A stretch of 64,000 nucleotides of DNA from Desulfotruncus arcticus DSM 17038 (GTDB lineage Bacteria > Bacillota > Desulfotomaculia > Desulfotomaculales > Desulfallaceae), in the NCBI RefSeq assembly GCF_900113335.1, contig NZ_FOOX01000009.1, forward strand, positions 124,001 through 188,000. Reading direction: 5' to 3'. A program made the position numbers and the translations under genes. Below, piece after piece: positions 14,759 through 22,218 of the stretch (position 1 is the first letter of the stretch; every line of letters starts with the position of its first letter). The notes beneath the pieces are model-generated. The model was not told the DNA's origin. It saw only the letters and a list, made by a program, of their open reading frames with translations, and did no database searches.

Positions 14759-15151
14759 TCAGAGTGTTCCTCTTTTATCCCTCCAGTATTTGATATATTT
14801 TTCGTAAAGAATTCCCCCCGGGCTCCATTCCATTTTGGTTTGTTTTTCGGTTTTATACACTTCTGTCCAGAGACCAAGTTTTTCTTGTATTGCCAGCCGG
14901 GGTTGCTCTTCCTGGGGAATAAGGGTATAAACGCATAACACAGAATTTTTGATATAAGGGCATGGATCGCACTTGTTATATTTGTTGGCAAATTTAGCCA
15001 TATTTAAAATTCCCTGATTGGCCAACTCATCAAGCTGCGGTGCAATCTCCCTGAAGAAATCTGCGCTCCCTTCATAAATCCATTTGCCTGTTACTTTGTT
15101 ATTAATTTCCGGTGCAAAAATATAAGTCCAAACATTACCAACCTGAATCAT
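14759..15151 (-). CDS. Hypothetical protein with CxxC-like cysteines
   Basis: About 130 residues. The ATG at 15151 has AGGGGG upstream. A longer reading would run into repeat copy C and is not believed. A small cluster of cysteines (CDPCPYIKNSVLCVY) around residues 68-82 could bind metal. The C-terminal half is Trp/Lys/Tyr-rich. I do not recognise a family. It is divergent from the pseudouridine synthase gene, with copy C between them. Confidence 0.6.
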   Translation of the reverse strand: MIQVGNVWTYIFAPEINNKVTGKWIYEGSADFFREIAPQLDELANQGILNMAKFANKYNKCDPCPYIKNSVLCVYTLIPQEEQPRLAIQEKLGLWTEVYKTEKQTKMEWSPGGILYEKYIKYWRDKRGTL

Positions 15152-15162
15152 TGTTATCCCCC

Positions 15163-15290
15163 TAATAAAGAAGACTTGGTTCAGGTGGGGTTTTTGACCC
15201 CATCTGAACCTTAGTCGCACTTATTTCGAGCTTACAGCCTGTTAATCCCCGACCTAAGAGGGCGGGGTTTTACAGGCTGTGCGAAGATAA
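15163..15290 (+). repeat. Structured leader element, copy C (diverged helix 2)
   Basis: The first half (TAATAAAGAAGACTTGG..., helix 1 and the linker TTAGTCGCACTTATTTCGAG) matches copies A and B. Helix 2 has different bases but still pairs: ACAGCCTG with CAGGCTGT, and CCCCG with CGGGG. The closing stem TTATTTCG pairs with CGAAGATAA, with one bulged G. Replacement of a whole helix with pairing kept is evidence that the fold matters. It is sense to the pseudouridine synthase gene, about 165 bases upstream. Confidence 0.75.
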
Positions 15291-16413: not shown

Positions 16414-16728
16414 TCAGTACCAGGTGAAAAGCACAATCAAGGTGGTGACTATCCCCAGAACGGTAACCAGGGATAGTGCCGAACAAATTCGAAAGAACTT
16501 TTTAACGATTACCAGTTCTGCTTCCAGTTTGGCAAACTTTTCATTGGCTTCAGTCATGACTTTTTCTACATCGGAATTCATAGCATTTTGAAGCAGGGCG
16601 ATATTCGATTCCAAAGTTTTAAACTTTGTTTCCACCGGTATCAGCAGACCGTTTCTCAGCGAATGGGCCAGTGATTTGGTTAGTTCAGGCTGATTCGGTT
16701 CTTGTGCCAGTTCATAAAGTTTGGCCAA
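16414..16728 (-). CDS. Small coiled-coil protein with C-terminal membrane anchor
   Basis: 104 residues from a TTG with GGAGGTG upstream. Residues ~20-75 are helical and heptad-like (LESNIALLQNAMNSDVEKVM). They are followed by a single hydrophobic segment, about 82-103, ending in TWY. No family is recognised. It is the last gene of the dynamin operon, 3 bases after its neighbour. It could tether the complex to the membrane; this is inference from topology only. Confidence 0.65.
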   Translation of the reverse strand: MAKLYELAQEPNQPELTKSLAHSLRNGLLIPVETKFKTLESNIALLQNAMNSDVEKVMTEANEKFAKLEAELVIVKKFFRICSALSLVTVLGIVTTLIVLFTWY

Positions 16729-16731
16729 CTT

Positions 16732-16995
16732 CTACACCTCCCCGGAGGCCTGATTTACGGCATCTCTGATAGCTGACAGCACCAAAAGGGGGATTTCCTC
16801 TACTTTTTTTTCCAATTGATTAACCCTTTCCTTTAGCTCTTCAATGCCGGCGCGGTCCTGTACTTTAATGTCTTCAAGCAGCGCCAGCAAACGAGAGTTT
16901 TCATTAAGCACCGGCTGGATGAACTTTAGTTTTAGATTTACTAAAATATCTGATAAAATATCCTGCAGTTCATCATTATTTTTGGCAGAAACCAT
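16732..16995 (-). CDS. Small coiled-coil protein of the dynamin operon
   Basis: 87 residues with GGGAGG before the ATG. The centre is a strong coiled coil (AGIEELKERVNQLEKKVEEI) after a helical leucine-rich first half. No signal, membrane segment or enzyme motif is seen. It sits between two other small helical genes with very short gaps, so it is translated with them. Confidence 0.65.
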   Translation of the reverse strand: MVSAKNNDELQDILSDILVNLKLKFIQPVLNENSRLLALLEDIKVQDRAGIEELKERVNQLEKKVEEIPLLVLSAIRDAVNQASGEV

Positions 16996-17012
16996 ATTAA
17001 TACCTCCCGTGT

Positions 17013-17195
17013 TTATATTTTTTTTAAGGCCCTGTTCAGGGTCATAAGAAACTGTTTTAATTCATTGGAGTTATTTTCTTCCACTTTTTGCACCACGTTT
17101 TCCACAAGGTGCTGCTTCATTTCCCTGCCCGTGCTGTCACTAACTTCCCTGATTATTTTGCGCAGCCGATCATCCAGCGCTCTGGCGTTTTCCAT
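17013..17195 (-). CDS. Small helical protein of the dynamin operon
   Basis: 60 residues with a GGGAGGGAAC site before the ATG. Highly charged and probably all-helical (RKIIREVSDSTGREMKQHLV, later ELKQFLMTLNRALKKI). Its start overlaps the end of the 229-residue gene by 26 bases, which suggests translational coupling. It is unrecognised. Confidence 0.6.
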   Translation of the reverse strand: MENARALDDRLRKIIREVSDSTGREMKQHLVENVVQKVEENNSNELKQFLMTLNRALKKI

Positions 17196-17859
17196 TACTG
17201 TTCCCTCCCGGGGTTAGAATTTTATTCTCAAATATTTTCAATTCATTAAGGTATTGGTTAATGGTTGCAATTAACCTGGGGTCGGTTTCCCCGAAGCCTG
17301 CCGGTTGTCCTGTCGGGCCTGGATTTTGATGCTGCTTGTTTTTAAGCTGGTTAGTAGCCTGGTTTATTGCGTCACAAATTCGGACTTCATGCTCATTTAT
17401 TAAATTGATAATGGATTGACGAGTCTTCTCTATACCGGTTTTCTTATTTGCGGTTAAAAGGTCCAGGCTTTTTTTAATGCCTTGCACGTCCAGCTCAGGC
17501 AGCGGTGCTAAACCAGCATCAAAAGATTGCAAAGCCGAGTTGATGCTGCTCGCCAGGTCAAGGTAAGAAGGGACGGCTTTAACCTTGCGCGAAAGACCCA
17601 GAAAGCCTTTTTTGACAGTTTTTTGGCCGTCTCTAAAACCAATCAAGTCTTCCATAGTTGCAAAACTGTTTATTTTTTCCCGCCACAGTGAAAATTTATC
17701 CCGAGTCGTATTTAAAAGTGCAATGTTATCCGGTTTTTCCGCCGGAGTAAAATTTCCGACCCCGTCCGGGTCAGGTTCGTTTATCCGTATCAAAGAACTT
17801 AATGTTGTTTCGATTTCTTTAGGCGATGGATAAAGTTTTCCTGGCAGCGTGATTGCCAT
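17170..17859 (-). CDS. Hypothetical helical protein of the dynamin operon
   Basis: 229 residues, predicted mostly helical, soluble and without known motifs. A short Pro/Gly/Gln-rich linker (HQNPGPTGQPAGFGETDP) separates the ~180-residue body from a C-terminal helix. Its first ~20 codons overlap the 3' end of the dynamin-like gene by 61 bases. No strong ribosome site is seen, so reinitiation or coupling is likely. It could supply a stalk or adaptor for the GTPase; this is inference. Confidence 0.65.
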   Translation of the reverse strand: MAITLPGKLYPSPKEIETTLSSLIRINEPDPDGVGNFTPAEKPDNIALLNTTRDKFSLWREKINSFATMEDLIGFRDGQKTVKKGFLGLSRKVKAVPSYLDLASSINSALQSFDAGLAPLPELDVQGIKKSLDLLTANKKTGIEKTRQSIINLINEHEVRICDAINQATNQLKNKQHQNPGPTGQPAGFGETDPRLIATINQYLNELKIFENKILTPGGNSNGKRQSAG

Positions 17860-19946
17860 AACTGCTGCTTCAGTTGGTTTACCAGGTGCCCAAAACTTGC
17901 TTTGTCCCGCCCTTTTAGTGCTTCAAGCGCTGAAATAAAGTGAATCCTGTCAGACAGCGCCGGGTCCAGGTTGGTTTTTAAGTAATTGAGCACCTTCTCC
18001 TTTTCGCGTGCGTTTAGCGTATCGGCAAAATTAACGATTATAAAAACTTTGCGGCTTAGCTCAGTTTTATCAAACAGTCTGGTAACGCGCTCTATCACCC
18101 CCATGTCAGGCTTGGTCAAAACACCTTTACCATTTAGGAAAATTAAAAAACAGTCTGATGAGGGGAGATAATGACCGGTAATCTCCCTGTGCCGGTGATA
18201 AACTGAATCGAGTCCCGGTGAATCGATAAAGTCGGCGGTTTTTAAAACAATGGCAGGATGCGTAATCTCAATCAAGCTAACCCGCAACGCCAGGTGTGAG
18301 CCCGCGAGTTTAGCCAGAACCATGCGGTCGGACTCTTGGTTAAGATCGAGTTCTATGTTGTCCTCGCGGTTAAAGTAGACTTCAAAATAATCCGTTGAGT
18401 TGGTGCCGTTAAATTTCCGCAGCGGTATTTTTTTAAAAAGAGTTTTCCAGGGGCGTCTGGCTCCCTTAAACTCTCTTCTCACCCGGGCAAAAGTCTGTTT
18501 GAGCTGTTCAATTTCCTGCAGCAATTCCGGCGCTGATATTTCGGTTGCCATCCCTTGCCGGCTTTTTTTGAGCAGTTTAATGTTTGTAAGTAAATCGGGT
18601 TCCGTTAGCCATCGTTCAAGAATGGCAAGCTCATGCCTGCAGATTAAAGCTTGATTATCTTCTTTAAAATGAGTGGGTATAACCACTTGCCGGGCATATT
18701 TCACTACCGCCTTCTTTTGGCTGCCATGCGCAATTCTGGTTATTGCAAAGGTGGTTGGCCGGTTTTCCGCCGGCAGCACTGCTTCGCCCATCAAAGCGTT
18801 GAAAAAGGTTGTCTTGCCGCTGGAAAATCCTCCGGTGGCAGTGACCAGGTATGTCTCCCGTTCTAGTTTACCTGCTATCAAGTCCAGTTCTTTTACGACC
18901 CGGGTGTAGGGCTGCAATACAGGTTCCGAGCTAATGCGGTTAATTAAGTTAATGATGCTATTCCTTATTTCAGCCGGGTCCGGCGCCTCGTTGGTTCCGT
19001 ATATCACCGGGGTATGATTAAAAATGCCGGGATCTGTCACTGGCTTGACCACCAGATTTTGTACTTGCTGCGAAACAGGTGGAATGGATTTAATGATATT
19101 TTGACCCTGGATAACCTGCCTGGAATATTCCCTGGCTTCCCATAATTTAGATAAAAATAACGAGTCGCAGCTTTCATGCAGGGCTGCTTCAGTTATATCC
19201 GGAATTTGCTTGTCCAGCTCTTTGAATACTTCCGTCAATTTTGCTATCAACCAGGTGCCTGTTTTTTCTTCCAGATAAAGGCGAAATTTTTCCACGTCCT
19301 CCGGTGTGGCTGTATCAATAAGGTTTACCTGTATTTCGCCGCTGCATATTTCTCGCAGCACCTGCCGTGCTTCTTCCAATGAACTGCCGTCGCACTGGCC
19401 GAGATTGCAATTGATCCAAAAGGATAATTCCCCGGGTCTCTTTTTTCCCAGCAAAGCCTGGATCGCTTTGCGGTCTGTTTCGCCCGGTCCCCGTTGGTGA
19501 AACAAGTAAACGATATGGTCAATTTGCTCCAGATCTTCGGGAAAATCCACGGGGCCTGTAATAGCGTCTATTCCTGGCGTGTCCATAAGCTGCATCTTCT
19601 TTAATACTTCATTATTGAGCTGGACTTCTACCCGTGCTATTTTCCCTTCTCTAAAATCCTTATTTAAAAGGAGCCTTGAGAGTTCCCGTTCTGTTAAAAC
19701 AGTAACCTCCCGGCCGCCAAGGTACACCCGGGCCAGAAACCGCTGGCCATAACTGAATAAAATCCGGGTGGACGTAGCGGGGATTACATCCACCGGAGAT
19801 ATTTCCTGTCCCAGTAAGTTGTTGATCAGCGTAGATTTACCGGTATTGTAAGGTCCCATAAAAGCAATTACCGGCGCTTCCCAGGGCGAGGCGTAATCTC
19901 GCCGCAGCTTTTCTATCCTGGTCAGGTATTTTTCGATGTTTTGCAT
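17799..19946 (-). CDS. Double-headed dynamin-like GTPase
   Basis: About 715 residues with two GTPase domains. The first has P-loop GPYNTGKST (residues ~31-39), a P-A-T-S-T switch I and DTPGID near 120. The second has P-loop GGFSSGKTT near 372-380, RPTT switch I, DSPGLDS near 575 and a NFAD-type G4 near 640. Bacterial dynamin-like proteins remodel membranes; two-headed DynA of Bacillus is far longer. Here little room is left for the helical stalk, and four small helical proteins are encoded downstream. The ATG at 19946 follows GGGGG; TTG 19952 is an alternative. It is the first gene of the operon. Confidence 0.85.
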   Translation of the reverse strand: MQNIEKYLTRIEKLRRDYASPWEAPVIAFMGPYNTGKSTLINNLLGQEISPVDVIPATSTRILFSYGQRFLARVYLGGREVTVLTERELSRLLLNKDFREGKIARVEVQLNNEVLKKMQLMDTPGIDAITGPVDFPEDLEQIDHIVYLFHQRGPGETDRKAIQALLGKKRPGELSFWINCNLGQCDGSSLEEARQVLREICSGEIQVNLIDTATPEDVEKFRLYLEEKTGTWLIAKLTEVFKELDKQIPDITEAALHESCDSLFLSKLWEAREYSRQVIQGQNIIKSIPPVSQQVQNLVVKPVTDPGIFNHTPVIYGTNEAPDPAEIRNSIINLINRISSEPVLQPYTRVVKELDLIAGKLERETYLVTATGGFSSGKTTFFNALMGEAVLPAENRPTTFAITRIAHGSQKKAVVKYARQVVIPTHFKEDNQALICRHELAILERWLTEPDLLTNIKLLKKSRQGMATEISAPELLQEIEQLKQTFARVRREFKGARRPWKTLFKKIPLRKFNGTNSTDYFEVYFNREDNIELDLNQESDRMVLAKLAGSHLALRVSLIEITHPAIVLKTADFIDSPGLDSVYHRHREITGHYLPSSDCFLIFLNGKGVLTKPDMGVIERVTRLFDKTELSRKVFIIVNFADTLNAREKEKVLNYLKTNLDPALSDRIHFISALEALKGRDKASFGHLVNQLKQQLWQSRCQENFIHRLKKSKQH

Positions 19947-20387
19947 AATCAAAAACCCCCGTAATGGAATAAAAGATGTCCAAGTTCCCCTGTTGAAGTA
20001 TATTAACAGCCTTGTGTTGATATGACCGGTTCTAAATTTTAAGCGCCGTAATTTTGGGCATAAAAAAAGCCGCTATGGGATTGGTAGGTAGTTGCAACCA
20101 ATTTAAGCAGCTTGGCATTTAACAACGGAATTGAGTACGCCGGGATTGATTAAGAATTAATATATTGTCCTTAATGTTTTGGGGTTCACTGATAGAGATT
20201 ATTTTAATATTAATTGGAAAATTTTATGGACAAAAAGGAAAAAAGCAATTTCTGTGGAAATTATTACATAATTCGTGAATACGTCTGGTTTAATTTCACT
20301 TTGGTTTGGAAAGTTCTTAGTAATACGGCTAATGTCATAATACGAATAAACCAATAGCGTGTTTAACGTATTGGGGGTGAGGAATAA
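19947..20387. other. Divergent intergenic region, no clear signal
   Basis: About 440 bases between the divergent dynamin and methyltransferase genes. It is AT-rich toward the methyltransferase. An ATTGGT...ACCAAT inverted repeat lies near 20079-20101. I could not pick convincing -35/-10 pairs for either direction, and no gene is visible. Confidence 0.4.
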
Positions 20388-21583: not shown

Positions 21584-21811
21584 ATGATTAAAACATTGAC
21601 TACACACGGTAACAGTGCAGCCTTGGTAATTGATAAGGCTATACTTGAGTTGCTGGGAATCTCAATGTCCACACCATTAAAAATCACAACTGACGGGAAA
21701 AGCCTTATTGTTTCACCACTTCCCAATGACCAGCGCGAAAAAAAGTTTAAAACAGCCTTAGGCAAGGTGAATGCGCTTCACGGTGATACCTTTAGGAAGC
21801 TGAGTAAATAA
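21584..21811 (+). CDS. AbrB/MazE-type antitoxin
   Basis: 75 residues with GGAGG before the ATG. It begins like a SpoVT/AbrB swapped-hairpin DNA-binding protein (THGNSAALVIDKAILELLGI), and its Lys/Phe-rich C-terminal tail could wrap the toxin. The stop overlaps the toxin start by one base (TAATG). Antitoxins of this fold usually repress their own operon. Confidence 0.85.
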   Translation: MIKTLTTHGNSAALVIDKAILELLGISMSTPLKITTDGKSLIVSPLPNDQREKKFKTALGKVNALHGDTFRKLSK

Positions 21812-22218
21812 TGGGAAAGGAAGAATTAAATTTTTTAACCCTGGCTGAGGTGATTGAAATACATAAAGACCAAATTGAACGCTATGGTGGCCATCCAGGA
21901 TTAAGGGATTATGATCTCCTTTGTTCTGCTATAGCGATGCCGGAGGCCTCGTTTGGAGGGAAATACCTACATTTGGACATTTTTGAGATGGCAGCCGCAT
22001 ACGTTTTTTATATTTGCCAGGATCATCCTTTCATTGATGGTAACAAAAGGACTGGCCTTGCCTGCGGCCTTGTGTTTCTTGAGATAAACGGAATCACAAT
22101 AATAGATGATGTAGGTATACTTTATGAAACTGTAATGTCAGTTGCTTCCGGAAAGCTGAAAAAGGTAGATTTAGCAAAGACCTTTCGCAAACTATATCAA
22201 ATAACGGGGTTTGTGTAG
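21811..22218 (+). CDS. doc: Doc-type Fic toxin
   Basis: 135 residues. The Fic/Doc signature [13 protein letters not shown] is complete near residue 70. Doc enzymes phosphorylate EF-Tu and halt translation, and are neutralised by the partner antitoxin. Here the partner is AbrB-like instead of Phd. The length is normal and the gene looks intact. Confidence 0.9.

Follow-up and report, generated by a model that had tools for sequence, protein, structure and literature searches.

A double-headed dynamin-like GTPase and three conserved single-helix companions form a candidate membrane-remodelling machine of Desulfotomaculales

How might a dynamin-like protein that consists of little more than two GTPase heads do its work at a membrane? 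This question is raised by a compact minus-strand gene cluster within a 64,000-nucleotide stretch of the Desulfotruncus arcticus DSM 17038 genome (contig NZ_FOOX01000009.1, positions 124,001 to 188,000; hereafter the window), in which an initial annotation, made from the letters alone, had recognized a double dynamin followed by four small helical partners. By comparing this locus across the order Desulfotomaculales, we identify what is, on the evidence of conserved linkage, a module of four genes: the double dynamin and three obligate companions, which we refer to as s60, s87 and s104. With a probability of roughly 0.6, we read the locus as a membrane-remodelling machine of four proteins, passed on vertically within Desulfotomaculales, in which a soluble dynamin would be docked in trans by s104, s87 and s60 and would serve in membrane maintenance or repair.

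The GTPase is a bacterial member of the dynamin superfamily by its Dynamin_N score, its G1 and G3 motifs and its head-neck fold. Both heads score above the Dynamin_N cut-off of 27 bits (63.4 and 41.9 bits; E of 1.1e-29 for the whole protein against Pfam), each carries a P-loop (G1) and a DTPG, and in an alignment of 38 sequences the G1 P-loop and the G3 DxPG of both heads are invariant or nearly so; in head 2, G4 has the sequence NFAD. Head 1 additionally has an invariant QRG besides an SFWxNxN motif (D. alcoholivorax residues 151-153 and 175-187 in the alignment). We modelled the 84% identical sister protein of Desulfotruncus alcoholivorax with AlphaFold2, using the 38-sequence alignment (predicted local distance difference test, pLDDT, 83; predicted template modelling score, pTM, 0.60). 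The chain runs from head 1 (approximately residues 1-215) through ~85 residues of helices, to ~300, and a linker into head 2 (~324-680), and closes with helices. Foldseek searches with this model returned CjDLP, BDLP and SynDLP at E ~1e-12 and mitofusin at 1e-9, the best target coverage being that of stalk-truncated mitofusins (TMt ~0.5). Sequence scores, motifs, model and fold search thus agree with the initial annotation on two complete GTPase heads, and its remark that little room is left for stalks holds as well: no long stalk appears in the model, which consists of heads and short helices, and the conserved core has ~40-residue helices after each head. Further C-terminal helices are limited to some families, homologues range from ~690 to 1030 residues, and the core conserved through the order is, judging from the alignments, the two heads. 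No transmembrane segment was detected by hydropathy in the 38 GTPases (19-residue window, hydropathy >= 1.6), a scan that leaves an amphipathic paddle possible. In the window, the open reading frame (ORF) spans 17799-19952 (-), giving 717 residues from a TTG and 715 from the ATG at 19946; the latter is most likely the start, as it matches the MQNI start of the sister species. Within the source genome, Dynamin_N matches at E <= 1e-8 are confined to this locus.

Comparison with relatives revises the composition of the cluster. The 229-residue ORF behind the GTPase, initially taken for a separate helical partner, is in frame with the GTPase as a single ORF in D. alcoholivorax and 12 further family-mates, where the intact gene has ~920-945 codons; two family loci fall outside this count, one that a contig end truncates here (L060) and another with a shortened C-terminus (L066). 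Alignment to D. alcoholivorax DSM 16058 places a single 1-nucleotide deletion in the window at ~17818, which splits the GTPase, and the 229-residue ORF is therefore its C-terminal domain. Accordingly, the five tightly packed ORFs do lie on the minus strand at the positions first described, but one of them is no gene of its own, and four small partners become three conserved ones of 60, 87 and 104 residues.

The frame break may be a real mutation or a sequencing error. The domain behind it is variable: it occurs in the family of the window as well as in two others and is nearly absent from Pelotomaculum-, Desulfofundulus- and Desulfocucumis-type proteins. Its ratio of nonsynonymous to synonymous substitution rates (dN/dS) against D. 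alcoholivorax is 0.32, and its dN relative to that of the heads is 2.5 here versus 1.0-1.6 in three intact pairs with the domain; this quicker evolution hints at relaxed constraint after a real mutation. An older split, with the C-terminal part under constraint of its own, was rejected since that part evolves faster than in the intact pairs. A programmed frameshift joining the 717- and 229-residue ORFs was likewise set aside in favour of the deletion, because the relatives have a single uninterrupted frame and a classical slippery site is not evident. The same GTPase is also broken between its heads in a single-contig genome (G094; L082:6128-8427), into ORFs of 429 and 290 residues, by a mutation or sequencing error; frame breaks in this gene have thus been seen twice.

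Do the three small genes belong to the GTPase, or do they merely adjoin it? The initial annotation would have been contradicted by small genes that are not conserved with the GTPase or by a GTPase found among unrelated neighbours; we ran this comparison, and it did not contradict the annotation. The trio is conserved at the same positions in 39/39 loci of the order and in 45/45 named-genome loci uncut by contig ends, and profiles built from 14 family-mates located it directly downstream, in the same order, in all 25 loci from six other families. Among sampled genomes, to which all of our distribution counts refer, the GTPase occurs in 57 of 113 Desulfotomaculales. Genome-wide searches recovered s60 and s87 in exactly these 57, at the GTPase locus; the remaining hits to s60 (E ~0.003-0.009) and a single further one to s87 (E 0.005) lie as fragments within mostly long, unrelated frames. 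Furthermore, in an even phylum sample of 398 genomes, the GTPase and s87 were found only in the same four genomes, all of them Desulfotomaculales. One related locus is labelled as an actinobacterial metagenome-assembled genome (MAG; L124), possibly through a binning error. Gene order is fixed and neighbours overlap or nearly touch: s60 begins before the GTPase C-terminal frame has ended, s104 starts 3 nucleotides past the s87 stop codon, and in a Desulfoscipio MAG (L097) all four genes share one frame. Promoter and terminator scans gave hit numbers not above those of shuffles. Ordinary single-headed dynamin-like genes (~600 codons) are patchy in the order, with or without the module.

The small proteins are under strong purifying selection and are at least as constrained as the heads they accompany. 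Against D. alcoholivorax, dN/dS is 0.053 for s87, 0.092 for s104 and 0.103 for s60, compared with 0.144 for head 1 and 0.100 for head 2 (0.05-0.10 versus 0.10-0.14). The s60 N-terminus, MENARxLDERLRKIIREVSxxTGxEIK, contains invariant residues, and s87 has the conserved motifs KxVQPV and PLxxLxAIRDAINQA. By hydropathy, every one of the 39 s104 sequences has a single hydrophobic helix at its C-terminus, with 0-10 residues beyond it, in keeping with the membrane anchor first proposed for the last gene; no transmembrane window was found in s60 or s87. The expectation of mostly helical partners is borne out by a fold of the D. alcoholivorax trio as one tethered chain, in which each protein is predicted as one long helix (the genes share a frame, and the intervening stops were read as Q as a modelling device). 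s87 and s104 share K-x-[VIL]-x-P and align as profiles (hhalign probability 71%, E 3.8e-5). The two might stem from an ancient duplication into a soluble and an anchored paralogue, a proposal weakened by their coiled-coil composition. Searches of Pfam, NCBIfam, PHROGs, PADLOC and PDB sequences for known families gave just weak coiled-coil-like matches. Judged by linkage and constraint, s60, s87 and s104 are functional companions of the GTPase and not chance ORFs.

Table 1. Features of the double-dynamin locus, in window coordinates
Feature	Coordinates	Strand	Basis
Double-headed dynamin-like GTPase, N-terminal 715 residues	17799..19946	-	Dynamin_N twice, Pfam, AlphaFold2, Foldseek
GTPase C-terminal domain (229-residue ORF, out of frame here)	17170..17859	-	In frame in relatives, alignment
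1-nucleotide deletion splitting the GTPase reading frame	17817..17818	-	Nucleotide alignment
s60, 60-residue soluble single-helix protein	17013..17195	-	Co-occurrence, invariant residues, dN/dS, fold
s87, 87-residue soluble single-helix protein	16732..16995	-	Co-occurrence, dN/dS, fold
s104, 104-residue helix with C-terminal transmembrane segment (tail anchor)	16414..16728	-	Hydropathy, dN/dS, loci

In the machine that we propose, the soluble GTPase would contribute two dynamin heads on short helical necks, without a long stalk or membrane anchor; s104 would act as the receptor, a tail-anchored helix in the cytoplasmic membrane; the soluble helices s87 and s60 would bridge s104 to the dynamin or assemble with it; and GTP-dependent pairing of the heads would pull or tether membrane patches where receptors cluster. 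We infer both the physical complex and the receptor role of s104. Several points weigh against this proposal. In head 1, the near-invariant SFWxNxN replaces the usual G4 region, which is unusual; the tail anchor of s104 is assigned by hydropathy; the tethered trio reached a pTM of 0.35 without confident mutual packing; the cellular role is drawn by analogy; and approximately half of the sampled order does without the module, which is therefore not essential for the lifestyle.

The small helices could alternatively be the dynamin's missing stalk, trunk and tip, which would join the heads to build a single dynamin-like particle. Such an arrangement is attractive for a dynamin that lacks a long stalk and is co-encoded with three long helices, one of them membrane-anchored, and LeoC/LeoB provide a precedent for a dynamin-like protein (DLP) divided into chains (PMC4159319). 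The small proteins, however, were not found to be related in sequence to any DLP trunk, the trio has no confident joint fold, and in one family (L068-L071) s104 is reduced to 67-75 residues, short for a trunk, with its anchor retained. Because s104 can shrink to ~70 residues yet keep its anchor, we place receptor and adaptor functions ahead of the stalk explanation, which we regard as unlikely.

How far does such a receptor-docked machine resemble known dynamins? Nostoc BDLP1 and mitofusin share the head and neck fold and have a paddle or membrane anchor within the same chain. Like the GTPase described here, Bacillus subtilis DynA, also from a Bacillota-type bacterium, is a single chain with two fused dynamin heads; it can tether membranes and bring about their fusion, reacts when membranes are damaged and postpones lysis by phage (PMC8844932). 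The window GTPase nevertheless reaches 86.4 bits with the DynA model (NF052648), far under its cut-off of 1600, the model has 1187 positions against ~690-1030 residues here, and DynA differs from the GTPase of this module in that the latter has no long stalks and comes with obligate small partners, one tail-anchored. Among solved structures, the best match by both sequence profile and fold is Campylobacter jejuni Cj-DLP1/Cj-DLP2 (5OWV), in which two heads likewise act together but are encoded by separate genes. Bacterial dynamins usually act as head pairs, and in Cj-DLP lipid is bound via the Cj-DLP1 trunk (PMC6104087). No homologues of s60, s87 or s104 were found in Campylobacter/Helicobacter DLP loci. 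LeoABC, too, comprises tandem bacterial DLPs, one of them split into two chains (PMC4159319); the PADLOC models for this system gave weak, partial matches here (49.9 and 22.4 bits) that do not amount to membership, and, unlike the present proteins, Leo proteins have trunks and a conserved split, whereas the frame break in the window is private to one genome.

The closest counterpart in working, with no sequence relation claimed, is perhaps found in mitochondria. Eukaryotic dynamins are single-headed and have full stalks. Their mitochondrial recruitment uses the tail-anchored Fis1, the coiled-coil adaptor Mdv1 and the dynamin Dnm1, or Mff and Drp1 (PMC3578726), that is, a tail-anchored receptor, a soluble coiled-coil adaptor and a soluble dynamin. 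The locus likewise links a tail-anchored helical protein to a dynamin (39/39 hydrophobic tails, 45/45 loci). We tentatively suggest, at somewhat less than even odds, that this is a dynamin without stalk or anchor of its own that works only through three obligate single-helix proteins, one a tail-anchored receptor, and so a convergent counterpart of mitochondrial receptor-adaptor recruitment with a minimal two-head motor. In a separate locus of a Brocadiia MAG (L139:210-7234), two dynamin-like genes are immediately preceded by the gene for a 467-residue helical protein whose C-terminus carries a transmembrane segment. The N-terminus of this protein gives a weak match to the s60 profile (E 7e-5), and QRG and SFWxNxN, the motifs of head 1, recur in the second dynamin. 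This could be the arrangement described here in a distant and fused form.

The inheritance of the module bears on its cellular role. Every testable family forms one clade in the GTPase tree, with 6 changes, the minimum (shuffled mean 18.5); the gene is present in one copy per genome and in all 16 genomes of the window's family. In that family the flanks are fairly stable (an RluD-like pseudouridine synthase, a conserved gene of ~130 residues and a DUF815 ATPase), and in other families the flanking genes differ while the four-gene set persists. By these patterns, the module is chromosomal, vertically inherited with losses, and not mobile defence cargo. A function in phage defence, among the roles initially left open, or in abortive infection would fit the slowing of phage lysis by two-headed DynA in B. 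subtilis (PMC8844932) and the weak match to LeoA in PADLOC (49.9 bits). Yet family-wise inheritance without exchange is not what mobile cargo would be expected to show, the neighbours are housekeeping and variable, inspection of them revealed no evident defence genes, and the plasmid and phage searches each gave one partial match, while viral contigs yielded no relatives. As a primary, mobile-cargo role, defence is thus disfavoured, and we consider it highly improbable.

Desulfotomaculales are mostly spore-forming anaerobic bacteria, and vertical inheritance in sporulating Bacillota could equally suit a factor of the division or sporulation septum, with a precedent in Streptomyces DynA/DynB (as cited in PMC6104087). 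However, Spo0A is present in 105/113 genomes versus 57/113 for the module and fails to discriminate its carriers, and no constant division-gene neighbours were recognized; we judge a septal role improbable, if less so than defence. By analogy with B. subtilis DynA, the most likely role is cytoplasmic membrane maintenance or repair, with division ranked second and defence last.

Two neighbouring regions of the window may be recorded alongside. Adjoining the DUF815 ATPase, a conserved 153-residue gene (14759-15220, minus strand; IQVGNVWTYIFAPxxNNKVxGKWIYEG), without a Pfam match at cut-off, is retained on the downstream side of the module across much of the family. At 21584-22218, a short AbrB/MazE-like ORF comes before one that carries a Doc/Fic-type motif; by reading, the two look like a toxin-antitoxin pair.

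To our knowledge, characterized bacterial dynamins are built either as one chain that unites the heads, the stalk and the part that binds the membrane, or as two full chains. Our literature search turned up no account of a bacterial dynamin accompanied in this way, or of this locus in Desulfotomaculum relatives, although subscription papers were little covered and absence is unproven. The three small protein families, without a match in the libraries searched, can serve as markers of the module. A whole order appears to have dismantled its dynamin, with the two heads made soluble and membrane contact placed in tiny, conserved and unannotated helices; the four-protein set offers itself for reconstitution, which could be used to ask which parts a dynamin needs at minimum and whether bacteria evolved receptor-adaptor recruitment on their own.

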